A stretch of 64,000 nt of DNA from Argopecten irradians. Taxonomy: Eukaryota; Mollusca; Bivalvia; Pectinida; Pectinidae. The notes below the pieces were generated by a model. It worked only from the letters and a program-made list of their open reading frames with translations. It was not told where the DNA came from and did no database searches. The stretch is from NCBI RefSeq assembly GCF_041381155.1, contig NC_091143.1, positions 39,323,996 to 39,387,995 of the forward strand, written 5' to 3'. This document shows positions 22,801 to 57,285 of the stretch, in pieces. The translations under genes were made by a program, and so were the position numbers. How positions within the stretch are numbered: the stretch's first letter is position 1; each line of letters begins with the position of its first letter.

Positions 22801-23545
22801 CAACAGTCACAAAGGGCCTGCAAAGTCTACACATACATACTAGTTACATCACTCAACAGTCACAAAGGGCCTGCTAAGTCTACACGTACATACTAGTTAT
22901 ATCACTCAACAGTCACAAAGGGCCTGCTAAGTCTACACATACATACTAGTTATATCACTCAACAGTCACAAAGGGCCTGCTAAGTCTACACATACATACT
23001 AGTTATATCACTCAACAGTCACAAAGGGCCTGCTAAGTCTACATGTACATACTAATTATATCACTCAACAGTCACAAAGGGCCTGCTAAGTCTACATGTA
23101 CATACTAGTTATATCACACATCAAACAGTCACAACAGTCACAAAGGGCCTGCTAAGTCTACACCTACATACTAGCTATATCACTCAATAGTCACAAAGGG
23201 CCTGCTAAGTCTACACGTACATACTAGTTATATCACCTAACAGTCACAAAGGGCCTGCTAAGTCTACATGTACATACTAGTTATATCACTCAACAGTCAC
23301 AAAGGGCCTGCTAAGTCTACATGTACATACTAGTTATATCACTCAACAGTCACAAAGGGCCTGCTGAGTCTACATGTACATACTAGTTATATCACTCAAC
23401 AGTCACAAAGGGCCTGCTAAGTCTACATGTACATACTAGTTATATCACTCAACAGTCATAAAGGGCCTGCTAAGTCTACACATACATACTAGTTATATTA
23501 CCCAACAGTCACAAAGGGCCTGGTAAGTCTACATGTACATACTAA
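19890..23545 (+). repeat. 53-bp satellite array, about 69 copies
   Basis: The unit is caacagtcacaaagggcctg + ctaagtctacacgtacatac + tagttacatcact. Period 53 is fixed by starts at 20041 and 20094. Variation concentrates at two sites: acA/acC/acG/aTG before tacata, and ttAcatc/ttAtatc. Rare units are internally deleted (near 20630 and 23125). No stop-free frame of note and no gene overlap. Confidence 0.97.
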
Positions 23546-25721: not shown

Positions 25722-28700
25722 CTAGGAGCCTACATCTGACATTTTTAATTTCTTTGCTGATCTAGAAGTGTTAAACGTCCTTTGTAACGATGACTGTGAG
25801 TCCTGTTGTGGAGTATTAACATTTGAGATGGACCCTGAAAACATGGTAAAAGACTGGGCAATGTCTTGTGAAAAAAACTGATGGTCAAAGTCATCCACGC
25901 TAGTGTTATCACTCTCCTGGATCAATCTATCGCTCTGTGGTGAGAAATTCCCGAATTCACACGTTAATTGTCTACTACCTCCATCATTTGAACATTCCGA
26001 AAATAAACCCACTGAAGACCTAGATGAACGCCTCTTTCTCTTCCTTGGAGTCAGCTGAATTGTCAAAGATTCCAAGTATTCCTGAGATTTGGCAAGAATG
26101 TTATCCAACTCAGCACTTTGTGGTGCTTGACTATGAGAACTTGACGCATCTTCAGGTAAGTCGTCCTCTTCCCTAAGTGTGTTTATACCAAACAATCTAT
26201 GAAAGCTAGCGTCACTATCGTATCCATTTACATCCTCTTTACTCATAGCTGACGGTGACATCGCAGTGGCCCTCTGTGATGAACCCTGCTGATTACCGCC
26301 ATCCGCAGCTAACTGAAGATTTCGTATAAATTGCTGATCTTCATTTAAAAGTCTGTTTGAATTTTTTGGCTGCGATTCTTTCTTTTCCTTCCTTTTTTGT
26401 TTTATTTCTTCATCCTGAAATATCAAATGATAAAATGTCATTTGAATGCTTTTCTACAAATGAAACTATAGTAAACTTGACCCCCTCCCCAGGAAGAAAC
26501 CTGAGACCCCAGGATCATATAATTCACAATTTTTGTAAAGGATCTTAAAACCTTTCTATCTATGAAAAGTATTTGATTCTACCATTTCCAGAATTTCAGA
26601 AGAAGATTTTTGAAGTTTTTGCCTATTTAAACCCTTTTGACCCCACCCTTAAGGCCCCTGGGGGTCAGGCATAGAAAATTTGTTAATAGGGTTTAATGGC
26701 CATCTCATACTGATAATTCTGACATCATTTGACTCATTTCCTATTACAAATGAGCAAATAATGCTCACAAATGTGTTTGCCGAATATAAATCATAGTAAA
26801 CTTAACCTCCTCCCCAGGGGGAAACTAGAGACCCCAAGGTCATATAATTCACAATTTTTGTAGAGGGCCTTGAGGCCTTTCTATCGATGTGGAGTATTTT
26901 GTGGAGTATTTGATTCTACCACATCTGTGAGTAGAGAAGAAGATTTTTGAAATTTTAGTCAATTTTACCCCTTTTGGCCCCTCCCATAGCTCCCTGGGGG
27001 GTGGGGACCATATAATTCACAATTTTGATTGGCCTTATGCCTTAGAAGGTTTGTGCAAAATTTCATTGAAATTGCTTCAGCAGTTTTGGAGAAGTTGAAA
27101 ATGTAAATTGTTTACAGAGATACGACACACTACGAACGACGCATGACGGAAGATGGACAGCGACGGACAAAAGGCGATTAGAATAGGTCACTTGAGACTT
27201 TGTCTCAGGTGACCTAAAAATCATTCATCCCTTTTGATGTGGGATAGGTAAACCAATATCTTATAATATATTATATATATAATAATATCCTATTGTAAGA
27301 ATTTTTACCTCTCTGTTTGAAATTCTTTTGTCTTACCCCAAAGGGAGTGAAAAATTAAATTACTCCTTACACCAAAGTACTCTATAGTTACTAATATTCG
27401 CGGGGGTTTTAATTCTGCTAAATTCGAAAATCCATCCAAATTCTTGGAATTGAATTCCTCTAAAAATTAATGAAAATCATGGTTATACATATTATAGCCT
27501 GTCGTAATGACGTTTTCAAAAATTACAAAGATAATTCGCAGAAATAAACCATCGCAAATAAGTTCCAAGCAGTAAATCAGGAAATTTTAAAGCTGTAAAA
27601 TTTAACAAATATACATTATTCCGAATTTGCGTATTACAGAGTTATCTGCACTTGCGGGTAGGTATTGATTGTGATGTCATGTGTCTGCGAGCATAACGTC
27701 ATACGTTTCGGAGAAAACGACGTTAATTGCGCTCACAAAATAATGACATAACAATTGATACCTACCCAGAGGGAGCTAACTCTGTAATATGCAAAGAGGG
27801 AATGGAGTCTTGTAGATATTATTGCTCATTATGTAGTCTAAAGGCAACCTCATGTTAACTTAATGCAGTGAAATGAATCCCCATATCCCATATAGTCAGA
27901 CATTGACATATCTCTTGACTTAAAATTATAAATTAGCTTGCTCCACTAAGTAACTAACATAGATCTTATATTTTGTTAGTAAATTTGATCAGAACTAAAA
28001 ATTATTGAAATTGCTTGTCTGCCTGAAATGAGCCCAAAACTTCCAGCAATCCCTTTAGATATACCAAATTCTCAGTGGAAAAATTCTTGTATTCACCCAA
28101 AATAAGGTCAATAATTGTACAATAATGGCCCTAATGGACTACTTTATTTTCAGAAAAATTACTCCAATTTGTAAGAAACTATTACATGAAAACTCACCCT
28201 CTCCAGCAGCAGAGCGGACAGATCCGGACTGTCCTCCTCCCACAATGCTACAAGGATTTTACTTAGAGCGTTCGTCTGTGGAAAATTTCCCTCAGGTTCT
28301 CCGATTGGAGAACAAGGTTTTTCTGAATGTATTCCAGAATTCCGAGCCTGCCACAATTCCTCTGCTGTTTTGTATCTGTCTTCCCAGTATCTGATTTTAT
28401 CCGGCTTGTATCCAACGACTCTCTATATAACAGATCATACATTCAAGATATTTAAAACATTACAATGTTATGCATTCATGGCCCTGGTAACAGTGTGATA
28501 TGAATGTTTATTTACCCAAGGGAAATATTACATCTTTGGGTAAATAAACCTTCATATCACACTGTCAATGGGAAACATAAATTGTTTATTATTTATGCAG
28601 ATTTATTAGAGATGGATAAATTAAGATCATCAGGCTTCGTTTTATTTTACTTCTCTGAACATATGATAAAACAGTTATAGACTTTAAAAGTCCAAGCCGT

Positions 28701-31700
28701 ATTTCTCCGTAATTAGCACCCCTTCTCTTTTCTGGAGGAGTTGCCGCCAACCCATGGATAAAACAATGTCTTATAACTCTATGATGTTTATAACATTGGC
28801 ATTTTATCCCATATTACAATCGTTGGAGACCCACAGGTGATTGCACTATACTACGCTACACTTATCAAGTGATAAGTGTTGCATAGTATAGTGCGATCAC
28901 CTGTGGGTCTCCAATGATGCATGTTACATGAAATTCATGTTATTGCATGTGCATTAACTTGTGAATCAGGTCATGACTTAATGATGTGTCACAAAGTAAA
29001 AACAGCATTATATTATGCATGTTTACAGTGACAAATCAATGTGTGGATCCCTAAAAAGTGCCCTCTTCATTACAATTTTCTAAATGCCCTGGGCACTTCT
29101 TACAGTGAATATGGTAATTGTATAATTTACAGCATTGTATTTTATTCTTCAGTAGAAGTGAAATCTACATTAATCTTCAAGTTTCATTTCATTTTGAACA
29201 CTTCTGGTGGTAAGACAAGGACTCACCTGTCCAGCCTGAACAAGCTGCTGAGCAGTGGTCAAGGTCTGATGACAGGATGGACAAGGGTCAGTGTTATCTT
29301 CAATCCTCTCCTCTTGTTGTTGTTCAGGATGACAAAGTGGACAATGTATATTAGGTTCCTCCTTCAGAGAAAGATCTAGAGGGTAACAGAATGGTTTATA
29401 TATATAGATCTAGAGGGTAAGAGAATAGTTTTAAGGCTAAATATGAATGAAGTTTTACACAATCAACTTATATTATCACAATAGAAAACTAATAAGCATA
29501 TGGAAAGATTTAAGTGCAATTAACAAAAGCAGGAAATTTAGGGCATCGAAGGCATCAACTAAAGATTGAAGAGAGCATAAACCTGTGATATAGTTATTTA
29601 TTTTGTCTCAGGTCAGATTGTACAGGATTTATTTTGTCCCAGGTCAGATTTTACAGGATTTATTTTGTCCCAGGTAAGATTGTACAGGTTTTATTTTGTC
29701 CCAGGTCAGATTGTACAGGATTTATTTCATTTTGTACCAGGTCAGATTGTACAGGATTTATTTCATTTTGTCTCAGTCCAGATTGTACAGGATTTATTAC
29801 ATTTTGTTTCAGGTCAGATTGTACAGGATTTATTTTGTCCCAGGTCAGATTGTACAGGATTTATTTCATTTTGTCTCAGTTCTGATTCTACAGGATTTAT
29901 TTCATTTTGTCTTTGGTCAGATTGTACAGGATTTATTTTATCCAAGGTCAGATTGTACAGGATTTACTTCATTTTGCCCCAGGTCAGATTGTACAGGATT
30001 TATTTCATTTTGTTTCAGGTCAGATAGTACAGGATTTATTTTATCCAAGGCCAGATTGTACAGGATTTATTTCATTTTGTCTCAGTTCTGATTGTACAGG
30101 ATTTATTTCATTTTGTCTCAGGTCAGATTGTACAGGATTTATTTCATTTTGTTCCAGGTCAGATTGTACAGGATTTATTTTATCCAAGGTCAGATTGTAC
30201 AGGATTTATTTTGTCTCAGGTCAGATTGTACAGGATTTATTTTGTCTCAGGTCAGATTGTACAGGATTTATTTTGTCTCAGGTCAGATTGTACAGGATTT
30301 ATTTTGTCTTTGGTCAGATTGTACAGGATTTATTTCATTTTGTCTCAGGTCAGATTGTACAGGATTTATTTCATTTTGTCTCAGGTCAGATTGTACAGGA
30401 TTTATTTTGTCTTTGGTCAGATTGTACAGAATTTATTTCATTTTGTCTCAGGTCAGATTGTACAGGATTTATTTCATTTTGTCTCAGGTCAGATTGTACA
30501 GGATTTATTTTGTCTTCAGTCAGATTGTACAGGATTTATTTCATTTTGTCTCAGGTCAGATTGTACAGGATTTATTAAATTTTGTCTTCGGTCAGATTGT
30601 ACAGGATTTATTTCATTTTGTCTCAGGTCAGATAGTACAGGATTTATTTCATTTTGTCTCAGTTCTGATTGTACAGGATTTATTTCATTTTGTCTCAGGT
30701 CAGATTGTACAGGATTTATTTCATTTTGTCTCAGGTCAGATTGTACAGGATTTATTTTGTCTTCGGTCAGATTGTACAGGATTTATTTCATTTTGTCTCA
30801 GGTCAGATTGTACAGGATTTATTTCATTTTGTCTCAGGTCAGATTGTACAGGATTTATTTTGTCTTTGGTCAGATTGTACAGGATTTATTTCATTTTGTC
30901 TCAGGTCAGATAGTACAGGATTTATTTCATTTTGTCTCAGTTCTGATTGTACAGGATTTATTTCATTTTGTCTCAGGTCAGATTGTACAGGATTTATTTT
31001 GTCTTCGGTCAGATTGTACAGGATTTATTTCATTTTGTCTCAGGTCAGATTGTACAGGATTTATTTCATTTTGTCTCAGGTCAGATTGTACAGGATTTAT
31101 TTTGTCTTCGGTCAGATTGTACAGGATTTATTTCATTTTGTCTCAGGTCAGATTGTACAGGATTTATTTCATTTTGTCTCAGGTCAGATTGTACAGGATT
31201 TATTTTGTCTTTGGTCAGATTGTACAGGATTTATTTCATTTTGTCTCAGGTCAGATAGTACAGGATTTATTTCATTTTGTCTCAGTTCTGATTGTACAGG
31301 ATTTATTTCATTTTGTCTCAGGTCAGATTGTACAGGATTTATTTTGTCTTCGGTCAGATTGTACAGGATTTATTTCATTTTGTCTCAGGTCAGATTGTAC
31401 AGGATTTATTTCATTTTGTCTCAGGTCAGATTGTACAGGATTTATTTTGTCTTTGGTCAGATTGTACAGGATTTATTTCATTTTGTCTCGGGTCAGATAG
31501 TACAGGATTTATTTAATTTTGTCTCAGTTCTGATTGTACAGGATTTATTTCATTTTGTCTCAGGTCAGATTGTACAGGATTTATTTCATTTTGTCTCAGG
31601 TCAGATTGTACAGGATTTATTTCATTTTGTCTCAGGTCAGATTGTACAGGATTTATTTCATTTTGTCTTTGGTCAGATTGTACAGGATTTATTTCATTTT

Positions 31701-34700
31701 GTCTTTGGTCAGATTGTACAGGATTTATTTCATTTTGCCCCAGGTCAGATTGTACAGGATTTATTTTGTCCCAGGTCAGATTGTACAGGATTTATTTTGT
31801 CCCAGGTCAGATTGTACAGGATTTATTTTGTCCCAGGTCAGATTGTACAGGATTTATTTTGTCCCAGGTCAGATTGTACAGGATTTATTTTGTCCCAGGT
31901 CAGATTGTACAGGATTTATTTTGTCTTTGGTTAGATTGTACAGGATTTATTTCATTTTGTCTTTGGTCAGATTGTACAGGATTTATTTCATTTTGTCTTT
32001 GGTCAGATTGTACAGAATTTATTTTGTCTTTGGTTAGATTGTAAAGGATTTATTTCATTTTGTCTTTGGTCAGATTGTACAGAATTTATTTCGTTTTGTC
32101 TTTGGTCAGATTGTACAGAATTTATTTCGCTTTGTCTCGGGTCAGATTGTACAGAATTTATTTCATTTTGTCTTTGGTCAGATTGTACAGGATTTATTTC
32201 ATTTTGTCTCAGGTCAGATTATACATGATTTATTTTGTTCCAGGTCAGATTGTACAGGATTTATTTTGTCCCAGGTCAGATTGTACAGGATTTATTTTGT
32301 CCCAGGTCAGATTGTACAGGATTTATTTTGTCCCAGGTCAGATTGTACAGGATTTATTTTGTCCCAGGTCAGATTGTACAGGATTTATTTTGTCTCAGGT
32401 CAGATTGTACAGGATTTATTTTGTCCCAGGTCAGATTGTACAGGATTTATTTTGTCCCAGGTCAGATTGTACAGGATTTATTTTGTCCCAGGTCAGATTG
32501 TACAGGATTTATTTTGTCCCAGGTCAGATTGTACAGGATTTATTTTGTCCCAGGTAAGATTGTACAGGTTTTATTTTGTTCCAGGTCAGATTGTACAGGA
32601 TTTATTTTGTCCTAGGTCAAAGTATACATGATCCATTTTGTCCCACATCAGATTGTACGGGATTCATTTTGTCCCAAGTAAAATTGTGCAGGATTTATTT
32701 AGAAACAGGTCTGATTGTAAAAGATTTATTTTGTCCCAGGTCAGATTGTAAAACAATTATTTTGTCACATTGTACAGGTTTTATTTTGTCCAAGGTCAGA
32801 TTGTACAGGTTTTATTTTGTCCAAGGTCAGATGCCCAAGGTCAGGCTACAGGAAGTTCCAGGTCAGATTTTAGCTATTTTTCTCTTAACTTGCATTGCCA
32901 AAACTACAGATATTCCAGAAAGTAGACTGAAATAAAGTTGATATGCTATCAAATACAACTGTGACAGTGGACAATAAGTTTTGGGTGTTACACGTAAGCT
33001 GAGGGAGAGTACCAGTTATTTTAGAAAGTATTCAGTCTATTGTCCCAGTTAACATGCATATCAATGCCACTTACTTGTATAAACACAATTATTCTGGTCT
33101 GTTGACTGTTTTCTTTTGTTTTCATCTTTCTGTGTTTCTTTTCTTTTTCTAACATATCTTGTTATCCATTTGTGCCCCTTCCTGATTGTGATATCATCCC
33201 AGGGATGGCCATCTGTTTCCACAGAGCAGGTCTTGTCATGGACCTCATCAGAGAATTGATATCCCTGGTAGAATATCTCACCATAACTGTCCAGCTGCAT
33301 ATCAATAGGAAAGCAGGAACTATTAACGGACGGAAAGATGGACAGAAAAACAGATGGACGTACAGAAGTAGGGACGGAAGGATGGACGGACAACGGATGG
33401 ATGACAGACCGTGGACGAAAGGCGATTTGAACTGCCTCACTATAGGACAAAATGTCCTCAACCCAGGAGCTTCTTAACACTTAGTCTTGTCTAAAGAATA
33501 ACATTTGTCATGTTGAGGTAATCAATCGTGAAGAAATATTGTCAGAGATAAGATAAAATGATGACATCACATTCCTGATTAATCATTTTCTGATCTTCAC
33601 ATAATATACTGTATATTCTGAATATTCTGTATATACTGTACAACTAATAAGAAATGGGTATCAAACAAACTTGTATAGTGAAGAAGTCATCGTCCAGAGG
33701 TATTGTGGTGATACCGGCCAGGGACGTGTTAAATCTGTCGGTGGTTAGAACCTCTTCTGAACCCCCACACATAGATTGATGATGGAATACATCTCTGTAA
33801 ACAACACAACAGGTCCATGATGTAACAACGCAACAGATCCACAATGTATACAACACAACATGTCCACAATGTATACAACACAACAGATCCACAATGTATA
33901 CAACACAACATGTCCATGATGTAACAATGCAACAGATCCACAATGTAAACAACACAACATGTCCATGATGTAACAACACAACAGATCCACAATGTAAACA
34001 ACACAACAGGTCTACAATGTGTACAACACAACAGATCCACAATGTATACAACACAACAGGTCTACAATGTGTACAACACAACAGATCCACAATGTATACA
34101 ACACAACAGATCCACAATGTATACAACACAACAGATCCACAATGTATACAACACAACAGATCCACAATGTATACAACACAACAGATCCACAATGTATACA
34201 ACACAACAGATCCACAATGTATACAACACAACAGATCCACAATGTATACAACACAACAGATCCACAATGTATACAACACAACAGATCCACAATGTATACA
34301 ACACAACAGGTCCACAATGTATACAACACAACAGGTCCATGATGTAACAACACAACAGGTCCACAATGTATACAACACAACAGGTCCATGATGTAACAAC
34401 CCAACAGATCCACAATGAAAACAACACAACAGGTCCACAATGTATACAACACAACAGATCCACAATGTATACAACACAACAGATCCACAATGTATACAAC
34501 ACAACAGATCAACAATGTATACAACACAACAGATCCACAATGTGTAAAACACTACAGATCCACATTGTATACAACACAACAGGTCCACAATGTATACAAC
34601 ACAACAGATCCACAATGTATACAACACAACAGATCCACAATGTATACAACACAACAGATCCACAATGTATACAACACAACACATCCACAATGTATACAAC

Positions 34701-37700
34701 ACAACAGATCCACAATGTATACAACACAACAGATCCACAATGTATACAAAACAACAGATCCACATTGTATACAACACAACAGGTCCACAATGTATACAAC
34801 ACAACAGATCCACAATGTATACAACACAACAGATCCACAATGTATACAACACAACAGATCCACAATGTATACAACACAACAGATCCACAATGTATACAAC
34901 ACAACAGATCCACAATGTATACAACACAACAAATCCACAATGTATACAACACAACAAATCCACAATGTATACAACACAACAGATCCACAATGTATACAAC
35001 ACAACAGATCCACAATGTATACAACTCAACAGATCCACAATGTATACAACACAACAGATCCACAATGTACACAACACAACAGATCCACAATATATACAAC
35101 ACAACAGATCCACAATATATACAACGCAAAAAACCACAATGTATACAACACAACAGATCCACAATGTACACAACACAACATATCCACAATGTATACAACA
35201 CAACAGATCCACAATGTATACAACACAACATCCACAATGTATACAACACAACAATCACAATGTATACAACACAACAGATCCACAATGTATACAACACAAC
35301 AGATCCACAATGTATACAACACAACAGATCAACAATGTATACAACAAAACAGGTCCACAATGTATACAACACAACAGATCCACAATGTATACAACACAAC
35401 AGGTCCACAATGTATACAACACAACAGGTCCACAATGTATACAACACAACAGGTCCACAATGTATACAACACAACAGATCCACAATGTATACAACACAAC
35501 AGATCCACAATGTATACAACACAACAGATCCACAATGTATACAACACAACAGATCCACAATGTACACAACACAACAGATCCACAATGTATACAAACACAA
35601 CAGATCCACAATGTACACAACACAACAGATCCACAATGTATACAACACAACAGATCCACAATGTATACAACACAACAGGTCCACAATGTATACAACACAA
35701 CAGGTCCACAATGTATACAACACAACAGGTCCACAATGTATACAACACAACAGATCCACAATGTATACAACACAACAGGTCCACAATGTATACAACACAA
35801 CAGATCCACAATGTATACAACACAACAGGTCCACAATGTATACAACACAACAGGTCCACAATGTATACAACACAACAGATCCACAATGTATACAACACAA
35901 CAGGTCCACAATGTATACAACACAACAGATCCACAATGTATACAACACAACAGATCCACAATGTATACAACACAACAGATCCACAATGTATACAACACAA
36001 CAGGTCCACAATGTATACAACACAACAGGTCCACAATGTATACAACACAACAGATCCACAATGTATACAACACAACAGGTCCACAATGTATACAACACAA
36101 CAGGTCCCTGATGTATACAACACAACAGGTCCACAATGTATACAACACAACAGGTCCATGATGTATGTATACAACACAACAGATCCACAATGTATACAAC
36201 ACAACAGATCCACAATGTATACAACACAACAGGTCCACAATGTATACAACACAACAGATCCACAATGTATACAACACAACAGATCCACAATGTATACAAC
36301 ACAACAGATCCACAATGTATACAACAAACAGATCCACAATGTATACAACACAACAGATCCACAATATACACACAACAGATCCACAATGTATACAACACAA
36401 CAGATCCACAATGTATACAACACAACAGGTCCACAATGTATACAACACAACAGATCCACAATGTATACAAACACAACAGGTCCACAATGTATACAACACA
36501 ACAGATCCACAATGTATACAACACAACAGGTCCACAATATATACAACACAACAGGTCCACAATGTATACAACACAACAGGTCCACAATGTATACAACACA
36601 ACATCACAATGTATACAACACAACAGATCCACAATGTATACAACACAACAGATCCACAATGTATACAACACAACAGATCCACAATGTATACAACACAACA
36701 GATCCACAATGTATACAACACAACAATCCACAATGTATACAACACAACAGATCCACAATGTACAACACAACATCCACAATGTATACAACACAACAGTCCA
36801 CAATGTATACAACACAACAGATCCACAATGTATACAACACAACATCCACAATGTATACAACACAACAGATCCACAATGTATACAACACAACAGATCTACA
36901 ATGTATACAACACAACAGTCCACAATGTATACAACACAACAGTCCACAATGTATACAACACAACAGATCCATAATGTATACAACACAACATATCCACAAT
37001 GTATACAACACAACAGATCCACAATGTATACAACACAACACATCCACATTGTATACAACACAACAAGTCCACAATGTATACAACACAACAGGTCTACAAT
37101 GCAAACAACACAACAGGTCCACAATGTATACAACACAACAGATCCACAATGTAAACAACAAAACAGGTCCACAATGTAAACAAGGTCTTACTGTATCATT
37201 ATATTTTTAAGGTAATTTTTAAATTTTGGCATCTGAAACCCATGAGTCCATTTAAGCTAACTCACCCAATTCTTGACACTCTCCAGGGTGCTCCTAATGC
37301 TTGAGCTGCCTTCCCTGAGCTACACTTATATGTATAGCAGCAAACTTCTGGAGGACCCTGACTGCCTATCAAAAGGAGGCTGTGACCTTTTGAAGGAAAG
37401 TTGACCCCTTCCAAATACTGAGGTGGATTTTTCAATATGCTCTTCCAATTTAGTACCTAAAGGGGAGTCCAAACATGATATTGTAGTGATGGCCAATCGG
37501 TTTGAAATCATAATAGATTATCGTTTTGTACTCAGAAGTCATAAACCAATCGAAAATTGATTAAATAATCTGTTTCTAGTAAATAATGGATATTCAAATT
37601 TGCTGTAGTTATACTTTTCAGTGTTTTTTTTCTTTGGATATGGAATACTTACACAAAAGTTCAGAGTTTAGAAATATTTCATTTTCTTATGAGGATAAAG

Positions 37701-40700
37701 AGTACATTTAACAGCAACCCACTAACGATTGAAAAAATATCTATTACCGGTAAATTATATGTTAATAAAAAATCTACAACATACTTTGTACCAATATTTG
37801 ATAATCGGAAAGGACATTGCCACTGATTATTTATTATAAATGATCGATAATTGGCCCATCACTATGATATTGTGATATATTTCAAAAACCATCAAACCCC
37901 ATCATTGGTAAGTCTATCTGGTATATTGTTGACATAAATATGTACTTATCTTGACACTATCTAAACTGCTTTAGGTTAATGCACTAATGAATTTGGACAT
38001 TAAAAATAACTGACAATTATTAATCTTAATAATTTCTTTCTGATAAAAGTTTACATTTTTCAAGCAGTCCAAAATGTGTGCCATGTAAATGATCATGAGC
38101 ATAAGGCAGAAACATGCAGCGAGTGGTAAAAGACCTTTACAAACTGACTAGCATTGCCACTTTAGAACAAATTCAATTTCAAGAACAACTCTGTTGAAAC
38201 TTACCGGTGTGGACGGAAATCGCTGGTCAAGTAAGAAAAAGCTGTAATCAGTTGCGACAAAGTGATGAAACTCGGACGCTGCAGACTGTGTGAACATGTA
38301 TATTCTCTCTCCTGTCATCACCATCGAACTGGGTAAGGCAAACAAGTCAACACCAGGCTTACAGGGACTTCTCTACAACATACAGGGACAAATAAATCAA
38401 ACAGATCAATGCCAGGCTGACAGGGACTTCTCTACAACATACAGGGGACAAACAGGTCAACACCAGGCTGACAGGGATTTCCCTACAACATACAGGGGAC
38501 AAACAGATCAACACCAGACTTACAAGGACTTCTCTACAACATACAGGGGACAAACAGATCAACACCAGACTTACAAGGACTCCCCTACAACATGCAGGGG
38601 ACAAACAGATCAACACCAGACCTACAAGGACTCCTCTACAACATACAGGGGACAAACATTTGATACAAACACACTTCTGTATGATTCTACTATCACACTT
38701 ATAAAGTTGTTGAAATCTGTCTAAAATAAAAGAATGTTCCACATGAAGATGTACCATTCCTAGATGCCTAACCGAAGAGTTGACAAAACATGACTGTCAT
38801 GAATAAAGAAATTGTTTTCATCATGTTCAACACATCAATATTGTAAATGATTAATATTTGAATGGCCTGGTTCACAGAAAAGCTTACCCTGACATCAAAC
38901 AGTTGTACAACAGTTGGATCAGCAGCAACCACTTCACGAGGATGTGCACCAAACTCAGCTCGTCGCCATGGTAACGTACATAAAAACCTTGTGGGTCGGT
39001 CTTCTATCAATACTGATGGACTGTAACATTAAAACAAAGTGATATTGTGTTTTACTTACAGGAGGACCATATGGTAGCCTTTGACTTAACATGTAAATCT
39101 ATCCTCTTTAAATAAAGTTTATTATCATTATCATTATTATTGAGTGAGAATTCAATAAACAGAAATATATAAGATAGATAAAGTATGTCAGTAAGATTCC
39201 TGTCATAGACATATACAGTGGACCCTCGATAATCCGGACACCTTCGTTCCCAGCCTAAACCGCCGGATTATGAGTTTTCCGGACTGCCGAATCCTGTGTT
39301 CTTAGTCAATTAAATTGTCAATTACAAGTTACTCCCCTTTACCTTGTAATCCATGATAGGCTTTTATGTTATATATGTGTATTATAATAAATACTTCATT
39401 TGTTATGTTTTAAAAGTGTTGTTTTTTTTTATATTATTACATTAATAATATTAAATAGACGTATTTCTTTTTCAAAATACAAAACCAAAAGCCATCGTTA
39501 ATTTTGTACTATGTATGCATATAGCTACGTATCCCACTCATGATCTGTCGTACGGCAAATTATGTTTCAAAATGCCTAACCAAGCATCAATATCATGTAC
39601 ATTCTTAGCATAGAAAAACTATGATAACAAATAGTTATGAACATTTCAAGAACTAATATAATTGTTATTTTGTATATTGTGTCTTTTTATTGACCATTTC
39701 CACAAGTCTTTGCTTTCTGACTCACAGACGTGTGTAACAATCACGCGCCCGGGCCCATTCACGTCTAACTTCGTGCACAATGTCAAACACGTGTAAATGG
39801 CATGTGCCGTAGCCTTTATATCTGATTCACATACATTTAAAATACTTATTATTATTCTGAGTATTATCTTTGGAGGAGAATCCGACACTCAGAGCGATAT
39901 ATTCTGCATGCGAAACCAGTAAGGTATAGATCTACAGCATATGTACCCGTATTTTAAGCTCAAACTGCATGTTTAAAAGCGTGTGGCTAAAAATATATTG
40001 CGTATCTCAATTACAACACTGAAGTTTGATCTCCGTGAACCGTTACATGACTGCATGTACCTGTGTGAAAGGTGTTCAGGTAAACACCCGTGGCTATGAC
40101 CTGGCAACCGTCGTTATGACAACACACACTAGTGTCAAAAGGTAGTGTGTATTGACTGTAGCTGGCCTTAGATTTTCTTGGCACATCGCAACAACAAATT
40201 GTCCAGATTATTGCCCAAATTTTTTAACGAAAATTACATTCCGTTCTCAAAATGGAGTTCCAGATTCTGAATCCGAATTTCCGGGCTCAAATAAGTGAGT
40301 ATAAATAACGTTATGGAAATCCGTTCCCTGACATTTCCGTCCGGATTGTGAGATTTCCGGACTATCGGCGTCCGGATTATCGCGGGTCCATTGTAGATTC
40401 ATGTTTACTGTACAATAATTTACTCTAAAACAATACTCTATCTATAGTTGTTATATTTTGTGGGTGCAAATTTTTGAGATTTTTTGTTTGGAACTTATTT
40501 GTTGTGATTTATTTTCGCGAACTTTCTTTGTAATCTTTGATATATATATATATTTATTCATACGACAGACTGTAAGATGTAAAAGTTTAAAACTACCATT
40601 TTGATCAATTTTGTAAGGTATCAAAATTTCTTGAAATTGAATGAATTTGTTAATTTAGCGATATTAAAAAAAATGAATATCAGCAAATATACAGTAACAA

Positions 40701-43700
40701 TTTTAGAGCCACATGGGAACATTTTCTAGGTGTTAAAAACTGTTGGTTGGTGATTTTTACCCATGAACTCAATTTTTCTCCACCACAAAATCTTGATATG
40801 TATGTTGTAAAGCAAGACTTTCAATAGTTACAGTTTCACAGTACATTTATATATAAAAGAGAGAATTTATTATGGGTAAGGTTATCTACAGGGACTTATA
40901 CATGTATCTACAGATATATATTCTGTGTCTCACCTTTGATCAGAAGACCATAGATACACAGCACCGGTTGTCGTGGAAACCAAACACTCCCCTGGGATAT
41001 ATTTACTGTAAAAAAATATACCGGTTATCTCATATTAACATGCACAGCACAAGTAGCATTTAACCAAGGCAGGTTTCCGAAGAGTAAAAACAAATATTAC
41101 TACAAATAATTGTTGATTATTGTTTCCAATGAATAACATCACAAGGAAACACAAATCTAAATTTGGAATACCGTCATAAATCATGATCTTGATGCTGGTT
41201 GATAGACTTGTGAATGAAGAAAGTATGTGCACCATAATTATGAAGTAAAAATGTCACATGTAAAATGTATTCAAAATAAAGATGAATCATCAAGGAGACC
41301 CAACCTGCCTACCTGAGACAAACAGAGGTTGGTTGTCCCTGCTGTGACCCAACCTGCCTACCTGAGACAAACAGAGGTTGGTTGTCCCTGCTGTGACCCA
41401 CCCTGCCTACCTGAAACAAACAGAGGTTGGTTGTCTCTGCTGTGACCCACCCTGCCTACCTGAGACAAACAGAGGTTGGTTGTCCCTGCTGTGACCCACC
41501 CTGCCTTTCTGAGACAAACAGAGGCTGGTTGTCCCTGCTGTGACCCACCTGCCTACCTGAAACAAACAGAGGTTGGTTGTCTCTGCTGTGACCCACCCTG
41601 CCTACCTGAAACAAACAGAGGTTGGTTGTCTCTGCTGTGACCCACCTGCCTACCTAAGACAAACAGAGGTTGGTTGTCCCTGCTGTGACCCACCCTGCCT
41701 TCCTGAGGCAAATAGAGGTTGGTTGTCCCTGCTGTGACCCAACCTGCCTACCTGAGACAAACAGAGGTTGGTTGTCCCTGCTGTGACCCACCCTGCCTAC
41801 CTGAAACAAACAGAGGTTGGTTGTCTCTGCTGTGACCCACCCTGCCTACCTGAGACAAACAGACCTTGGTTGCCCCAGCTGTGACCCACCCTGCCTACCT
41901 GAGACAAACGGGGTTGGTTGTCCCTGCAGTGACCCACCCTGCCTACCTGAGACAAACAGAGGTTGGTTGTCCCTGCTCTGCAGTGAAGGTTGCCGCAGCT
42001 ACAGACTTAAATTTCCTACCCTCACGTCTGTTACTGTAAAGTCTACATGAGTTGAGACCTCTGGCAGCTATGTGTTCTGTGGACCAAAAACAAACAAGTC
42101 TCAATACTGTCTTTTTAATACAAACCATTATTGAAAATATATGTAAAAATGTCCTAAGAAATGTAGGCATTTGCCACAATATTTCTCAAAAGAAATATGA
42201 CAATTCTATGCACAATCTTCTTTAAAGGAAACAATGTAAGTACCGTATTCGACCCAACAAGCGCCAAGGGCGTATACAAATTACAAAGAATGAAAAGGTG
42301 CTAATAGAACGAAATTGTATTGCAAATCTATACATTTTTGTGTAGTTTTGGTCTTAATCTATGCCTGGGCAATTGAAATTGAGGCCTCAAAAAGGGGGAG
42401 GGGCGCTTATAGGGACATGACCGCTTATTAGGTCGAATACGGTAAATCATTTCAATACTAACTAATTCTAACTAACTGTATTAATAAAGAAAACATTGCC
42501 TACAAAAATGTGTCCTGGTACTTATTTTAACGTGATGATAATTGGAACCTATCTCATTACGTCCCTTTATTTGATGCTGTTAGGCGGCACCGCCTACTTT
42601 TAGTAGTTCCAGTTAGGACGGCAATGTAAACAAGGACATTCCGCATCGTACACATCATATGTCAAGTCTATTATATTGATGTTTTCCGTTCGACTGAATT
42701 ATTAAATCTTATTTTGATCCTGTCACACAGAATTGTTTTGAGATCATTCATTGGAAGAAAATCAAGAAATCATACAGAAATTTGTATCTACGTATCTACT
42801 GATCAAATATCAGAAGAGATTTTTTTGCCTTTTTTTTGATGATCTATTTGAGTATTGTGACTGTGTAATAAAGCAATAAGTTATTAGAGAATTACATGTA
42901 CATAGATATACTGACCTTGACCTGACACACATCTGGCCGTCACCTCTCTAACTGGCCAGTCCTCTATCAACTTATCCTGCTGGCCCAGTCGCAATGTCAA
43001 TTCCTTTTGGTCAATCTTCACATGTGAGATTCCTTATAACTGTTAAGTTAAATTTTCTCTGGTTCTAACTGTATACATAAGGCACAGAGGGCCTGTATTG
43101 CTCACCTGGCATGTTAAGACAAAGCTAGCAATGTTTGATATTGGAATACAAGTCGTTAAATTAAGTCAATAACTCAACGATATTGCTAAAAGGTTACAGG
43201 TGAGAATGTTGAAGTTGTGCTACAAGTTCAAATTCCATGTGGGGCAGCTGCCAGATACTAACCGCTGGTCTCAGGAACTTCGGCTTTTCTCAATCATTAA
43301 ACCTGGCACATCCTTAAATAACCCAGATTGTTAATAGGGCGTTAAACTAATCCAACTTAACCAACAACAAAAATGAATCCTGTTGCAATTTTGTCCGAGT
43401 TAAACTCTTGACGATGTTAGATTGTGTAACTGTATTAATGTGATTAGTTTAAGTTTATCTGTTATGTATAGAAGGATACTGAGTTGAGAGAGGTTGTTAC
43501 CAGCTGCTGACACAAGGCGAACATCTGTGGTTTCATCTGATGTCCCCACTAGACAAGAAATACACCCACCAGCATACTCAGAGTTTGTTTTCTGGAAAGA
43601 AAAATAATGTTCTTGCTTATTTTGCTATTGTAAAAATTACTAGTTCAGTAAAATGTTAATGTAAGAAATCAATTAAAGGTTAAGAATATGTCATAAGATA

Positions 43701-46522
43701 AAATCATCCATTGTCTTATAGATGTACATGTACATGTATATCAAAAAATTTCATATGAAAAAAAATTAAGAGGTATATCCTGCAGTATATAGAGTATACA
43801 TCTGTTTATCTAATAATTTAACTAAACATTACAATATTTATTTGAAACAGAAAATCGTTCATTATTACAATTTAATGTAATTTTAGGCATCTTTTTAAAT
43901 ATCTTCAGAATATCATCTTATATCGTTATAAATAATTCAAAGGTAAACGACATGAAAATTATTTATAAGATATTGTCATCACGAAACATCCCATGATTGT
44001 AATATCATTCAACAAAATATTGCAATCTTGACTGGGTACATACTATCCATTTTTTTTTTTTAACTTTTATTGCTTGGCTAAATCTATAACCAGTAACCAG
44101 AGATAAAGTCCATGGAATTGATTCCTTAAGTATCTTGTTTAGACACTATTCACATGTACATGCATATAAATTCTTATCTTGGCCAAGTTCAAAAATAATT
44201 TTAGTTGTTATTTTTTTCGTTGATGGTAACTTGATAAAAAGGTTTTGGGTAAGCGCAGGTTCTAATGAGTGAGCAGTAGAAGTCACTATCACATACAACA
44301 TACAATTTTAACCATAGCAACATTATTGCTATCAGGAAAAACTAAAATCAGACTAACTCTGCTTGTAACTATAGTTAGGCCAAATTAAAAAAAAAAAATT
44401 TCGGTAACACCCTTTAAAAATGGGTCAGTAGGTAGAGATTTTTTTTTTTTTTTAAATATTTTTTCTCTTGGTCCGTTTCTTGCAGTGAAAAACTGAAATA
44501 GGCTTTATTCAACCTTATGTAAACCATGGATTTGATTCCCACAGGATTGTTGGTGTCTGAAATTGACAGACTTTGTACCAAAATTCCTGATTTTGTGCAA
44601 AACTAAACAAAATTTAGGTTGTTATTTGTTTGCTTGAGGACAAAACTGATAAAAAAATTTTTAAGTAGACACTGATTTTATAGGGTCGGTCGGGTTACCG
44701 GAAACAATTTTTTTATATATGGCCTTATTACATAGTACATGTGAAGGAATACTGAAACACACTTACAGGAATGTCAGAAAGTTCACGAAACTTCCCATAC
44801 TGTTCAGCTAGCCTCTGTAGAAGATGTAAGTCCTTACACTGTTTCCTTGTCCGTTTTAAACTGTAGTTTCTTATACGTTTCTTGGCATTCTCAGACAAGG
44901 TATCATGCTAAATATAGAACAAATGTTTGTTATCTGACATAATGACATGATGTTTTTTACATATCTTACAGATACAATTATTGCATAAAGAGTCTTTCTC
45001 TTCTCCCAGTAAATAAAAACAAACACCTCATTTAACTCATTAATAAATATCATATTTGGCATCTCCCCTTCGTTTTAAAGCTATTATCGGACAAACCATA
45101 CATTTGGAAAGATACTCAAGTCAAAGTATGCATCGTATGAAGTTATGAACAACTAGAAATATCCCACCACTACCCCTACCCACCCCTCCCCATCAAAGTT
45201 ACACACAACAGAAAGCAACACATATTTATCCTCCACTCCCCGTTCCATCGCTTACGTTAAAGATGCTCCACCGCCGACAGATCATAAATGATACTCATCA
45301 TTTGACCATCAGTTAGGGTTTAAACGTGTAACACAACAGACCATTTATTTTACTTTTGGTGCATGCATAATCAGTACTTCATTCCACAGTGGAAATAGTA
45401 CCAAAGAATTTTTTCGGGATCCAATCGACAATTTTTAATATTTTTATCTTGAAGTAAAATGGGAAGCTCAAACTTTACAATGGTGGTAATGGTGTTAAGT
45501 AAGTAACTTTTTTAAATACTAACTTGTCTGCTCCTGTTTTTGTCAGAGCAAAAATATGGTTTGTCAGCTGTGGAGCATCTTTAAATAATTTTAAACGGTA
45601 CATCCTTAAATTAATAATTATACATTCTCTTACTATTTGTTCTAATAGTTCTATTATTATCTTTATGTTATGTGAATGGGCAAATTTCTTCAAAATTTGA
45701 CAGGATTTTATCTGTCCACACTGTTGAAATAATTTCTTTGCCCCTAACTAACTGCACATATTACAAATCTAGAGGTACTTAGACTCTCCTGTTATGAGTA
45801 CTTACTTCGAAGCTGTAATGGTTTATAAGTCTCTTGAAATTTGCAGCTTCTTCCTGTACCTTTAATACATCTTTCATGAGATCACATGTGTTATTGGCAT
45901 CCACATCTGAAATGAAAAATGAAAGTGCAGGTAAGCTGGATTAATGCTTATTTCCTCAAATTAAGAATTAAAGACAACAAGAATTGATGCTACAACAATT
46001 GCTCATCTAATATGTAGAGAAATTGGAGGAAGGATCGAGAATGATCAATGTACATGTACAATGCACGTTGTCATAATTTACAATTTTTCATTGACTTACA
46101 ATTAATTATCATGAAAAAATCCACCCTGAAGACACATTTTGGCTCTTTGAAATAAAAGACTAGAAGAGTCCATTATGAAATTTCAGGGGTAAATGAGTTA
46201 AATCATTACATCATTATGAATTTGTTTTTCTGTGTTCCTAAAACCAAGTTATAATCATTAAAGCCATATTGTTATCAATGTGATTCATTGCATTTTCATG
46301 CATACTTTCTGGTGAAGAAGATAGTGGTAGTGTTGGACGTTTCGCACACAAATAATCTCCCTTTCTCAGAAAGCCTTCTGGAACCTTTTGACAAACTGCT
46401 TCATTCTTCTGTCCACGCTGTTGAACATCGACGAAACCATGGGAACCATACTCATAAAACACCTCATGTCTCTTTGTTACCTGAGCAGATGGGTTTGGAA
46501 AGTTGGCTTCAGGGAAGTCCAT
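25722..46522 (-). CDS. TAF1C: TAF1C, RNA polymerase I SL1/TIF-IB subunit, 16 coding exons
   Basis: Orthologue of TAF1C (TAF-I 110), which with TBP and other TAF1 subunits selects rDNA promoters for RNA polymerase I in the nucleolus. Coding exons, 5' to 3': 46306-46522, 45806-45906, 44767-44907, 43501-43591, 42922-43032, 41947-42076, 40934-41005, 38888-39020, 38626-38720, 38205-38328, 37266-37417, 33671-33794, 33075-33294, 29227-29375, 28198-28422, 25722-26414. Phases agree at every junction and sum to 2778 nt, or 925 aa (human 869). Matches recalled from human TAF1C are the N-terminal MDFP, PGECLVSTTTGAVYLW (exon 7), TLPWRRAEFGAHPR (exon 8), GERIYMFTQ and YSFFLLDQRFP (exon 10), HSLLLIGSQGP (exon 11), GEIFYQ (exon 13) and a basic C-terminus ending near AKKLKM. 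Exon 16 is acidic and low in complexity, with a PRKRKRR nuclear-signal-like cluster near 818-824. An acceptor 3 nt before the ATG implies a non-coding first exon. A short exon between exons 10 and 11 may be missing. Exon 9 is the least certain. Confidence 0.9.
26420..27225. repeat. Dispersed bivalve-type repeat with internal duplication
   Basis: Two diverged halves share 'ttcacaatttttgta(a/g)agg', 'tttctatc(t/g)atg' and 'tttgattctacca'. The right end reads 'aggtcacttgagactttgtc' then 'tcaggtgaccta', a small inverted terminus. It lies in TAF1C intron 15. The class is not known; no coding frame. Confidence 0.6.
27619..27802. mobile_element. 185-bp palindromic MITE, copy 4
   Basis: Same ends and CRE-like core as the other copies. 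TA precedes the left end (27617-27618) and TG follows the right end, so one target base has mutated. In TAF1C intron 15. Confidence 0.85.
28491..28564. repeat. Short hairpin, 28-nt arms
   Basis: cagtgtgatatgaatgttta plus tttaccca (28491-28518) pairs with 28537-28564 around an 18-nt loop with about one mismatch. In TAF1C intron 14, 69 nt upstream of exon 15. Confidence 0.85.
28820..28917. repeat. Near-perfect 98-bp palindrome
   Basis: 48-nt arms (28820-28867 and 28870-28917) meet at a 2-nt centre and hold only a few mismatches. The left arm begins tcgttggagacccacaggtg. In TAF1C intron 14. Confidence 0.9.
29607..32870 (+). repeat. 31/36-bp minisatellite in TAF1C intron 13, about 90-100 units
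   Basis: Two unit lengths alternate: 31 bp (ggtcagattgtacaggattt + attttgtccca) and 36 bp with an extra 'tcatt'-type insertion (…atttcattttgtctca). 29.6-30.1 kb and 31.74-32.6 kb favour 31-bp 'ccca' units; the middle is dominated by 36-bp 'ctca' units arranged in longer blocks. Units after about 32620 are degenerate. On the TAF1C sense strand every intact unit reads AATAAATCCTGTACAATC. Open frames over the array follow the repeat and are not genes. Confidence 0.97.
33800..37182 (+). repeat. 25-bp satellite filling TAF1C intron 11, about 135 copies
   Basis: The unit is acaacacaacagatccacaa + tgtat (25 bp). Starts at 34141 and 34166 fix the period. The main variant changes agatcc to aggtcc; rare units have gtccatgatgtaac. 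At the left edge the array runs straight into the 3' splice site of TAF1C exon 12; at the right edge it ends about 85 nt inside the intron 11 donor. The unit has no stop codon in any of six frames, which explains the very long frames on both strands. Confidence 0.97.
38329..38660 (-). repeat. 51-bp tandem repeat forming TAF1C intron 9
   Basis: About 6-7 units, each with the sequence cctgtatgttgtagagaagt (exon 9 end) followed by ccttGTAAGTctggtgttga (5' splice site and intron start). The first unit overlaps the exon 9 end; the last runs into the acceptor of exon 10. The period is 51 nt in the complete units. Confidence 0.9.
39216..40393. mobile_element. Pogo/Tigger-like non-autonomous element, 1178 bp
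   Basis: Left end CAGTGGACCCTCGATAATCC; the right end read inward is CAATGGACCCGCGATAATCC. Inverted ends are about 27 bp, with TA on both sides (39214-39215, 40394-40395). Subterminal 'ggattgtgag(t)tttcc' motifs recur. No transposase frame is present. In TAF1C intron 7. Confidence 0.85.
41295..41975 (-). repeat. 49-bp tandem repeat built on TAF1C exon 6 donor, 14 copies
   Basis: Each unit reads gggacaaccaacctctgttt + gtctcag (end of exon 6) then GTAGGCAGGgtgggtcac (donor and intron start). The copy nearest 41975 is the genuine exon end; 13 more follow downstream in intron 6. Variation is light (gtctcag/gtttcag), so the array is young or homogenised. Confidence 0.93.
42243..42442. mobile_element. 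200-bp MITE with CCGTATTCGACC ends
   Basis: Left CCGTATTCGACCCAACAAGC, right GCTTATTAGGTCGAATACGG, flanked by TA on both sides. Non-coding. A degraded relative of the right end may be at about 57510-57552 ('gtgtcgaatatggtta'). In TAF1C intron 5. Confidence 0.85.
43070..43125 (-). repeat. Fragment of the 56.3-kb repeat family
   Basis: The minus strand reads ccaggtgagcaatacaggcc then ctctgtgcc, matching the right end at about 57260-57282 ('caggtgagtgatacaggccctctg'-like). An isolated end fragment in TAF1C intron 4. Confidence 0.6.
43190..43376 (+). mobile_element. tRNA-headed SINE with mollusc-type tail
   Basis: A B-box-like caagttcaaattcc, a central 'gtggggcagctgccagatac', a 'cctggcacatcctta' tract and the tail 'ttaatagggcgttaaac'. 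The same central and tail blocks occur reversed at 53.5, 58.3 and 58.7 kb. In TAF1C intron 4. Confidence 0.7.
44375..44727. mobile_element. MITE with 'gaccgacc' core, copy 2
   Basis: Ends ttaggccaaatt and atatggcctta, with 'tatagggtcggtcgggttac' near the right end. A diverged relative of 17634-17862. In TAF1C intron 3. Confidence 0.5.
45261..45580. mobile_element. TTAA-type MITE (AGATGCTCC family), copy 4
   Basis: The cleanest copy: TTAA on both sides (45257-45260 and 45581-45584), left AGATGCTCCACCGCCGACAG, right TGTCAGCTGTGGAGCATCT. In TAF1C intron 2. Confidence 0.88.
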
Positions 46523-48363: not shown

Positions 48364-51300
48364 ATGAAAGTGAAAGTGAAGAGTGAGTTTAAACTTGATG
48401 CTTTTAAGTAAACCGTAATTTAAAAGGGAGTGGGTCAAAGTTGGTTTGCCCAACTGAATCATAAGACATCGATCTCAGCACTTGACATGGTCACCTCGGG
48501 CACTTTTTGCTTTGGTCTGTCAGCTGTCTGTTGCCAGGTACTTGGTATACTGACCTTTGAAGACCAAAGCCACTCACTGGTAAAGTGTGCCCATGGTTAA
48601 CAAAGTAATGTCCAGTTATCTCACATGTAACAAATGCGAGCAAAAAATATCTTAAAGGCCCACTACCTTTCCAAAGCAAAATTTAAAGGTTTCTTAAAAA
48701 CATAAATAACAAAAGAAAATGCCTATCCATCGCCTAAGATGAGGTAACAGCATCAAACATATGGAAAATTTTCTCTGTAACATATGATAACAGTGGAGAG
48801 TTATTTCGCTGTTTTGTCTTCTGGCATAGTAATATCCAACTACTGCGCGGTATTTAGGACGACGGCGGGAAACATAAGACGACCCGCGTTATGAAAATCA
48901 AAATTCATTTATTTTAATCAAAATTTTCTGAAGATGATGATGAGTGTAGTATTAAAGATGAGTTAATAACTTTTGCGACTCTACAAAATTATCGATCTCG
49001 TTTTACATTCCCATTTCAAAAATTAAAAGCTGTTTTGGAAAGGTAATGGGCCTTTAAATACAAAAAAACAAAAATGTGAAAAATTGCAAAATAAAGTTAT
49101 GCTAACATGTCCGATTTCTTTTTTTTTTCATGTGCAACACCAACCTACTCGTATATTTTGACGATGACCTACATTTTTCCTGCATTTATTAGGGTAAGTG
49201 CTATGTAATACATCATGTATGGGTATACACTATACAATTATTCATATTATGTTTCAAGCAATTATGGGTTGTAATATGACTGAAGGCAAGGCCCTTTTCA
49301 GTCAAATGTTTCAGTATTCATTAATAATGCAATGTTAAAAAGTGCAATTTATGGAAATAACGGAGCTGAATTTTCTGTTTATTTTTTATTCATATATTCA
49401 CCTTGTCCCCAAAACCCCCATTTGAGAAAGAAACCCCTATTATATATAATTAGGAATGAAGAAATTTCATTTCTGTAACAGATATTCCATTTGCCTGATG
49501 AAGATTACGTTTGTCAGATCATAAGAGTGTTTGAACCGCTCGATTATATTATGAGCTTATTTTACTTCAAAGCATCATATCCCATGGTAATTATCCATGA
49601 TTCCCCTCTCCATAAAAAAATGGGGGCCAGAAACTGAAGCTGTCAGTGTGTATGGCTGGATTTTGAAGATTGGGTTTTTAGGTCATCTGACCCAAAGGGT
49701 CAGGATGACCTATAGTCATCATGCACCGTCCGTCGTCGTCCGCCGTGCGCCGTCCGCCGTGCGTAAACTTTTCATTCAAACAACTTCTTCTCAATAACTG
49801 TAAGGCCCAAAGTACTCATATTTGGCCTGTAGCATACTTGGATGAAGGGCTATCAAAGTTGTGAAAATAAATGACCTTGACCTACTTTCAAGGTCACAGG
49901 GGTCAAATAGGCTAAAATCTTTGAACGACTTCTTCTAACTAACCAAAAGGTCCAGGGTACTCATATTTGGCCTGTAGCATGCTGGGATGAAGGGCTACAA
50001 AAGTTGTGAAAATTAATGACCTTGACGTACTGTCAAGGTCACCTGGGGTCAAATAGGCTAAAATCTTTGAACGACTTCTTCTAACTAACCGAAAGGTCCA
50101 GGGTACTCATATTTGGCCTGTAGCATGCTGGGATGAAGGGCTACCAAAGATGTGAAAATAAATGACCTTGATCTACTTTCAAGGTCACAGGGGTCAAATA
50201 GGCTAAAATCTTTGAACAACTTCTTTTAACTAACCGAAATATCCAGGGTTCTCATATTTGGCCTGTAGCATGCTGGGATGAAGGGCTACCAAAGTTGTGA
50301 AAATAAATGACCTTGATCTACTTTCAAGGTCACAGGGGTCAAATAGGCTAAAATCTTTGAACGACTTCTTCTAACTAACCAAAAGGGTCAGGGTACTCAT
50401 ATTTGGCCTGTATCATGATGGGATGAAGGGCTACAAAAGTTGTGAAAATTAATGACCTTGACGTACTGTCAAGGTCACCGGAGGTCAAATAGGCTAAAAT
50501 CTTTGAACAACTTCTTCTTTGGCCTGTAGCATGCTGGGATGATTGGCTACCATAGTTGTGAAAATGAATGACCTTGGCCTACTTTCAAGGTCATAGGAGT
50601 CAAATAGACTAAAACATTTGAATGACTTCTTCTAACTAACCGAAAGGTTCAGGGTACTCATATTTGGCCTGTAGCATGCTGGGATGAAGGGCTACCAAAG
50701 TTGTGAAAATAAATGACCTTGATCTACTTTCAAGGTCACAGGGGTCAAATAGGCTAAAATCTTTGAACGACTTCTTCTAACTAACCAAAAGGTCCAGGGT
50801 ACTCATATTTGGCCTGTAGTATGCTGGCATGAAGGGCTACAAAAATTGTGAAACTTAATGACCTTGACTTATTGTCAAGGTCACCGGGGGTCAAATAGGC
50901 TAAAATCTTTGAACGACTTCTTCTAACTAACCGAAAGGTCCAGGGTACTCATATTTGGCTTGTAGCATGCTGGGATGAATGGCTACCATAGTTGTGAAAA
51001 TGAATGACCTTGACCTACTTTTAAGGTCACAGGGGTCAAATAGGCTAAAACCTTTGAACGACTTCTTCTAACTAACCTTTGAACGACTTCTTCTAACTAA
51101 CCAAAAGGTCCAGGGTACTCATATTTGGCCTGTAGCATGATGGGATGAAGGGCTACAAAAGTTGTGAAAATTAATGACCTTGACGTACTGTCAAGGTCAC
51201 CGGAGGTCAAATAGGCTAAAATCTTTGAACGACTTCTTCTAACTAACCGAAAGGTCCAGGGTACTCATATTTGGCCTGTAGCATGCTGGGATGAATGGCT

Positions 51301-56329: not shown

Positions 56330-57285
56330 TACTTTTCAGCTCACCTGGCTCGAAAGGCTGATGAGCTTTTGCTATTGCACGGCGTCTGTCGTCCGTCCGT
56401 CAACATTTCCTTTAAATCGCTACATGTCATAAAGTACTGCATGAATTTTAACATAATTTGGTCAGAAACTTTAGGGGAAGGGGATCAGATTTTGCATAAA
56501 TGGTGACCCTGACCCCCCTGGGGCAGGAGGGGCGGGGCTCAATAGGGGTAATAGAGGTAAATCCTATAAATCGCCACTTGTCCTAGAGTTCTGCATGGAT
56601 TGCAACCAAATTTGGCCAGAAACTTCCTTAGGGGAAGGGGATCAGATTTGCATAAATGGTGACCCTGACCCCCCCTGGGGCAGGAGGGGCGGGGCCCAAT
56701 AGGGGTAATAGAGGTAAATCCTATAAAACGCTACTTGTCCTAGAGTTCTGGATGGATTGTAACCAAATTTGGTCAGAAACATCCTTGGGGGAAGGGGAAC
56801 AGAACTACTTGTCCTAGAGTTCTGGATGGATTGTAACCAAATTTGGCCAGAAACATCCTTGTGGGAAGGGGAACAGAACTTGTATAAATTTTGGCTCTGA
56901 CCCCCAGGGGGCAGGAGGGGCGGGGTCCAATAGGGGAAATAGAAGTAAATCATATAAATCGCTACCTGTCCTAGAGTTCTGCATGGATTGTAACCAAATT
57001 TGGCCACAAACATCCTTTAGGGAAGGGAAACATAACTTGTATAAATCTTGGCTCTGACCCCACTGGGGGCAGGAGGGGCGGGGCCCTGGGGGAAATAGAG
57101 GTAAATCCTAAAAATCGCTACTTGTCAAATTTTGGCTTTGACCCCCTGGAGCAGAAAGAGTGGGGCCCAATAGGGAAATTAAAGGTAAATATTCGAATTC
57201 CTTCAGAAAAGAAACAATGAACTTGTATTCAGAACATTACTTGGCATTACAAACCAGGTGAGTGATACAGGCCCTCTGTTTGTGA
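56330..57285 (+). repeat. Dispersed bivalve-type repeat with internal tandem units
   Basis: The left end tcagctcacctggctcgaaa and the right end caggtgagtgatacaggccc form short inverted termini. The interior has about five units of 'cctagagttctg(c/g)atggat' followed by 'ggggcaggaggggcgggg'. The same right end is found at 43070-43125. No coding frame is accepted. Confidence 0.75.

Follow-up and report, generated by a model that had tools for sequence, protein, structure and literature searches.

Two introns of a TAF1C homologue in the genome of Argopecten irradians carry tandem arrays of minisatellite-sized units (14 copies of 49 bp and six copies of 51 bp) that span a predicted exon-intron border, a seldom described arrangement that matches the 'mirages' of lancelets. 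We consider it quite probable that these arrays are mirage-type minisatellites, formed when a segment holding the border was duplicated and expanded into the intron, that splicing uses the outermost copy, and that arrays of the same kind occur at other genes. The gene lies within a window of 64,000 nucleotides, which is the whole stretch of DNA that was analysed and to which all positions given below refer.

The TAF1C homologue (25722..46522, minus strand) was modelled with 15 exons, 14 GT-AG introns and an open reading frame of 921 codons, and a search with Pfam profiles identified the TAF1C_beta-prop domain (PF20641, E=3.6e-16) within this homologue. Its exon borders are predicted, drawn from open frames, splice consensus sequences and similarity to human TAF1C. 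A single frame of 921 codons results when the outermost array copies serve as splice sites. The original prediction had described arrays with units of 49, 51 and 25 bp in introns 6, 9 and 11 of this gene and a fourth array in intron 13. All four, the last with a unit of 36 bp, are indeed present in the combined TRF and gene model data, where they occupy introns 6, 8, 10 and 12. The earlier numbering seems to have counted one exon too many, probably in the large intron 7. By eye, positions 39230-40440 in this intron hold a transposon-like sequence with inverted ends (starting approximately TGGACCCGCGATAATCCGGAC and ending approximately GTCCGGATTATCGAGGGTCCACTG), which we take to be of the DNA transposon kind and which is possibly the source of the extra exon.

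The arrays were located with TRF and their positions compared with those of the modelled exons. The 49-bp array (41297..41977, minus strand) spans the donor of exon 6 (41947..42076, minus strand), such that the last 31 nucleotides of the exon (41947-41977) are the outermost copy of an array that continues into intron 6. Likewise, the 51-bp array (38339..38658, minus strand; reported by TRF as 38398-38658 with a period of 51 bp and as 38339-38658 with a period of 153 bp) spans the acceptor of exon 9 (38205..38372, minus strand), with its outermost copy forming the first 34 nucleotides of the exon (38339-38372) and the remainder residing in intron 8. The 25-bp array (33796..37183, minus strand, approximately 136 copies) fills most of intron 10 and adjoins the acceptor of exon 11, where it ends one base before the exon and includes no exon sequence. 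The proposal that three arrays were seeded at a splice site is thus borne out for the 49- and 51-bp arrays, which span a junction, but not for the 25-bp array, which stops one base short. The 36-bp array (29594..32607, no strand assigned, approximately 89 copies) resides in the interior of intron 12, at distances of 218 nucleotides from exon 13 and 467 nucleotides from exon 12, in agreement with its earlier description. When the 49-bp array is scored with a period of 341 bp, TRF also reports two copies of approximately seven units each with 92% matches, which suggests a block duplication within the array (41297-41977).

Tandem arrays comprise 25.7% of the window, compared to approximately 5% of 60 sampled loci from elsewhere in the genome. 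Three more of them, all outside the TAF1C homologue, are a 53-bp array of 3.6 kb (19940-23544), a 145-bp array of approximately 2.5 kb (49779-52236) and a 157-bp array (56408-57037); by eye, the 145-bp unit recurs at sampled loci L023 and L075, and the 157-bp unit at L064. The other genes of the window had been said to lack junction arrays, and we found none crossing a junction in the few exons that could be modelled for the SBF-family transporter and ANAPC11. A 47-bp array of 2.3 copies (8150-8256) ends 49 nucleotides before a putative exon that begins at 8306, which was placed at the end of the SBF-family (bile acid symporter) gene and has no Pfam match of its own.

Most copies in both junction-spanning arrays retain a splice signal. 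The sequence AGGTAGG survives in 12 of the 14 units of the 49-bp array, and GTTGTAG in all six units of the 51-bp array, including the outermost copy in each case. When each of the 17 AGGT positions in the 660 nucleotides following exon 6 is used as an alternative donor, the reading frame invariably stops at residue 264 rather than at 921. Similarly, all six alternative TGTAG acceptors tried before exon 9 (five of them in array copies and one elsewhere within a unit) bring the frame to a stop between residues 335 and 369. Among the sites tried, the full protein would therefore be made only from the outermost copy, and we infer that this copy is the splice site in use.

These characteristics suggest a simple series of events. 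A short segment that happened to hold an exon-intron border would have been duplicated in tandem, with slippage or unequal exchange then enlarging the array within the intron. The outermost copy, which runs directly into the exon, would serve in splicing, leaving the other copies as intronic decoys, most of which have intact splice sites. Since splicing at a decoy is predicted to end the frame early, such arrays would be tolerated, presumably as neutral sequence, provided that splicing keeps to the outermost copy. Individual arrays may be artefacts of the assembly. The same process would be expected to act at other genes, beyond TAF1C.

The idea that these arrays reflect a process specific to one gene was set aside, because the same anatomy was found in kinase, AAA and DEAD-box genes of the same genome. 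The assembly was searched for Helicase_C, Pkinase, AAA (21 matches) and RRM exons, and 28 exons were chosen from the eligible matches: 18 Pkinase exons with flanks of approximately 350 nucleotides, and ten (six Pkinase and four AAA) with flanks of 130 nucleotides. They were picked, blind to arrays, for their short open frames (the last ten for their short matches), and they form a small sample of two domain families in which some exons are paralogues of one another. Arrays span five of the 56 predicted junctions, and thus five of the 28 exons (8.9% of junctions, with a 95% interval of 3.0-19.6%). Four are located at donors, with units of 39 bp (L087, 18 exonic nucleotides), 95 bp in 2.3 copies (L099, 37 exonic nucleotides), 36 bp (L105, 24 exonic nucleotides) and 25 bp (L106, 21 exonic nucleotides), and one is located at an acceptor, with a unit of 50 bp (L095, 19 exonic nucleotides). 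The TAF1C homologue itself, which prompted this survey, has two of its 28 junctions spanned.

Several details of this sample affect how the individual cases are read. At L095, exon sequence is present in the last 2.1 copies only; the preceding 5.8 copies are a related 50-bp unit that lacks it, so this array may have spread over the junction instead of originating there. The predicted acceptors of L083, L084 and L107 and the predicted donors of L085 and L104 score weakly, and at L095 and L105 the automatic caller chose a neighbouring copy of the same splice site. Two scans covered loci L101 to L110, with TRF scores set at 30 and at 50, and both positives among them score above 200. On the donor side of L105, the second 36-bp copy is in frame and open, such that use of the second donor would add 12 residues to the kinase. 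The start of locus L085 carries a 34-bp array with GAGGGTAAG in its unit, which stops tens of bases short of the acceptor of the kinase exon (60 nucleotides according to the automatic caller) and somewhat resembles the arrangement in intron 10 of TAF1C.

To judge these counts, we calculated the number of crossings expected if array seeds fall evenly and a crossing must include at least 8 nucleotides on each side of the junction. The array densities of the 60 sampled loci (L021 to L080) and of the window predict 0.0047-0.0073 crossings per junction, or 0.26-0.41 per 56 junctions, and the densities of the 28 exon loci themselves, with the crossing arrays included, predict 0.010-0.015 per junction. 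The six non-crossing arrays with a period of at least 15 in the same flanks predict 0.72-0.84 crossings (Poisson P 0.0009-0.0018), and a conditional binomial calculation based on five crossings among 11 arrays gives P 0.004-0.007; the arrays had already been seen when these controls were selected, and the flank lengths used are round averages. The observed excess indicates that a purely neutral model of array birth at any position, which would yield 0.72-0.84 crossings, is insufficient by itself to predict five.

A wider set of exons gave a different result. The 60 loci L021 to L080 are the best helicase and kinase matches, from which 34 with open frames longer than 256 amino acids were left out of the junction counts, leaving 26 loci (11 with frames of up to 166 amino acids and 15 with frames of 186-256 amino acids). 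Only arrays near the ends of the open frames were inspected and the junctions were not drawn individually, making this count less careful than that of the 28 exons. Just one of 52 junctions is spanned, which is near chance, by a 44-bp array of 2.3 copies with 10 exonic nucleotides at the acceptor of L023 that was found after the fact, by inspection. This count tells against a uniform high rate. Pooling the 28 exons with the 11 loci of shortest frames gives six of 78 junctions, and with all 26 loci six of 108. The enrichment over random placement for which the original prediction proposed a test is supported by five of 56 junctions against 0.26-0.84 expected, but not by one of 52. The 28 exons offer modest evidence that arrays are more common at junctions than even placement predicts, and the two samples are uneven in this respect.

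Genome-wide counts of splice-like words point weakly in the same direction. The whole assembly was examined for tandem triplets of a splice-like 8-mer with spacings of 10-40 nucleotides, and the same word reversed served as the control. The donor words AGGTAAGT and AGGTGAGT yielded 6231 matches (versus 807 reversed) and 3453 matches (versus 664 reversed), respectively, and the acceptor word TTTACAGG yielded 3550 (versus 1650 reversed). Splice-like words in tandem triplets thus exceed their reversed controls by 2- to 8-fold when matches are counted, and by less when arrays are counted. Single occurrences outside arrays, counted in 262,503 exon-rich bases, are closer to parity, with word-to-reversed ratios of 11:8 for AGGTAAGT, 8:5 for AGGTGAGT and 15:15 for TTTACAGG. 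The match counts are inflated because long arrays are counted many times, and one array on contig C1 accounts for 97 of the first 100 AGGTAAGT matches listed. By eye, the matches listed for this contig form approximately 12 arrays for AGGTGAGT (over 68 Mb), 13 for TTTACAGG (over 46 Mb) and six for the control word TGAATGGA (over 69 Mb), and the resulting array-level difference of approximately 2-fold between AGGTGAGT and TGAATGGA compares different words.

Unit lengths are consistent with arrays that arise in exons, in introns and across the borders between them, and that survive inside exons only when they keep the reading frame. Arrays within long open frames have periods divisible by three, including 21, 42 and 63 bp at L054, 27, 30 and 54 bp among others at L066, and 30 and 90 bp at L068, compared to three of the eight junction units (49, 51, 39, 50, 95, 36, 25 and 44 bp). 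This contrast is partly built in, because units of other lengths would tend to close the frame.

An alternative explanation for the TAF1C arrays is that a mobile or dispersed satellite, of an Introner-like or Helitron-carried kind, was inserted at splice sites. We searched the assembly from which the window derives (846 Mb in 1508 contigs) for further copies. With 401 bases of each array as the query, the 25-bp array finds matches elsewhere with 64-76% identity, the best of which, on contig C15, also has a 25-bp period, and the 36-bp array finds matches with 65-72% identity, the best of which, on contig C6, has a period of 37 bp. These two arrays may therefore belong to dispersed repeat types, and the relative on C15, together with the lack of exon sequence, led us to reject junction seeding for the intron 10 array; the TG-rich 25-mers of intron 10 and of C15 may also be of independent origin. 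In contrast, neither 301 bases taken from the 49-bp array nor the whole of the 51-bp array matched anything in this assembly beyond its own array, even though such an absence is not proof of rarity, and both arrays hold sequence of their host exon. We therefore rejected a dispersed repeat for introns 6 and 8, where the arrays look to have been born in place from their own junctions, and we regard insertion of a satellite at the splice sites as very improbable. Selection might also maintain junction arrays, if the extra splice sites regulate or buffer splicing by acting as decoys or back-ups or by diverting transcripts to unproductive splicing. Most copies keep the splice consensus, the early stops that follow decoy use could feed nonsense-mediated decay, and the second copy at L105 stays open for 12 more codons. 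However, recent copying and homogenisation would likewise preserve the consensus, and the data come from one genome; selection of this kind seems to us unlikely.

Two further explanations concern the excess itself. A genome rich in repeats will place some arrays on junctions by chance, and the high array density, the selection of TAF1C for its odd appearance and the near-expected count in the wider set all agree with this possibility. Against it stand the five spanned junctions among 28 exons chosen blind to arrays, for which the probability is approximately 0.001-0.002 from the flank density and 0.004-0.007 from the conditional binomial calculation, and chance thus appears a rather poor explanation. 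Alternatively, junctions could be mutational hotspots for tandem duplication, such that the excess reflects a bias in where arrays are born, with breaks coupled to transcription or splicing, R-loops, or slippage at AGGT/GTAAGT sequences and polypyrimidine tracts as candidate causes. For the transcription-linked or R-loop process put forward in the original prediction, the sequence data argue neither way. This possibility draws on the excess over both the general array density (0.26-0.41) and the density in the same flanks (0.72-0.84), and on splice-like triplets that outnumber their reversed words while single occurrences are near parity. It is weakened by the word counts, which are of matches and not arrays and shrink to approximately 2-fold between different words on C1, and by the single positive among the 52 junctions of the 26 wider-set exons, and nothing in these sequence data ties the arrays to transcription. 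A birth bias is accordingly conceivable, but we do not favor it over mirage-type duplication of border segments as the account of the TAF1C arrays.

The original prediction also knew of no description of such a process, but lancelet mirages have the same anatomy, and in humans, too, tandem repeats are known from exon-intron boundaries (PMC2812944). In the portions of the published accounts that we could consult, mirages are minisatellite-like tandem repeats whose unit lies across an exon-intron boundary, as found in Adh3 (units of 10-72 bp), the globins BflGb6 and BflGb9 (150-160 bp) and troponin C, with PGBD5 added as a further case (units of 60 and 108 bp) in a report that also cites troponin C (PMC3902484). 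Like these elements, the 49- and 51-bp units span the boundary at a donor or an acceptor, and many copies keep the AG or GT signals. Unlike them, the arrays reported here come from a mollusc genome in which junctions of unrelated genes were counted, and the lancelet accounts consulted give no comparable rate; lancelet mirages are backed by RNA and allele data, whereas the TAF1C arrays are known from the sequence of one assembly. The human repeats, as portrayed in the available part of that report, reside in segmental duplications and affect gene structure, with novel introns and alternative splicing in recently duplicated genes (PMC2812944), whereas the scallop cases involve conserved genes whose mRNA is predicted to be unchanged.

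A related precedent is the Rogers model, in which the tandem duplication of proto-splice sites (AGGT) leads to intron gain, and cases of this kind are reported for a potato RdRp gene (PMC4974935) and for Drosophila (PMC2891723). Here too a segment with splice signals is tandemly duplicated, but no new intron is inferred, because the arrays do not reach the splice sites at the opposite ends of introns 6 and 8. In molluscs, an intronic 27-bp minisatellite is known from abalone, with no claim regarding a junction in the part of the report consulted (PMC6905558). Among the matches listed in our search of the open-licence literature, there was no report of junction-spanning arrays in molluscs or outside chordates, and none of a genome-wide rate for such arrays. 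The anatomy of the 49- and 51-bp arrays is thus of a kind already known from lancelets, and the excess at junctions, observed in a small sample, is the more interesting part.

This excess raises the speculative and somewhat doubtful proposition that junctions in this lineage are true hotspots of minisatellite birth, with several percent of exon-intron borders carrying their own tandem copies through a junction-linked mutational process. If so, the genome would receive a continuous supply of decoy splice sites, along with raw material for the gain or sliding of introns. Mirages are discussed, in the parts of the literature available to us, as a feature of lancelets. Their presence at several percent of junctions in another animal lineage would make them the outcome of a general mutational process that could be measured by scans of annotated genomes, and would bear directly on the gain and sliding of introns and on the choice that the splicing machinery makes among nearly identical sites.
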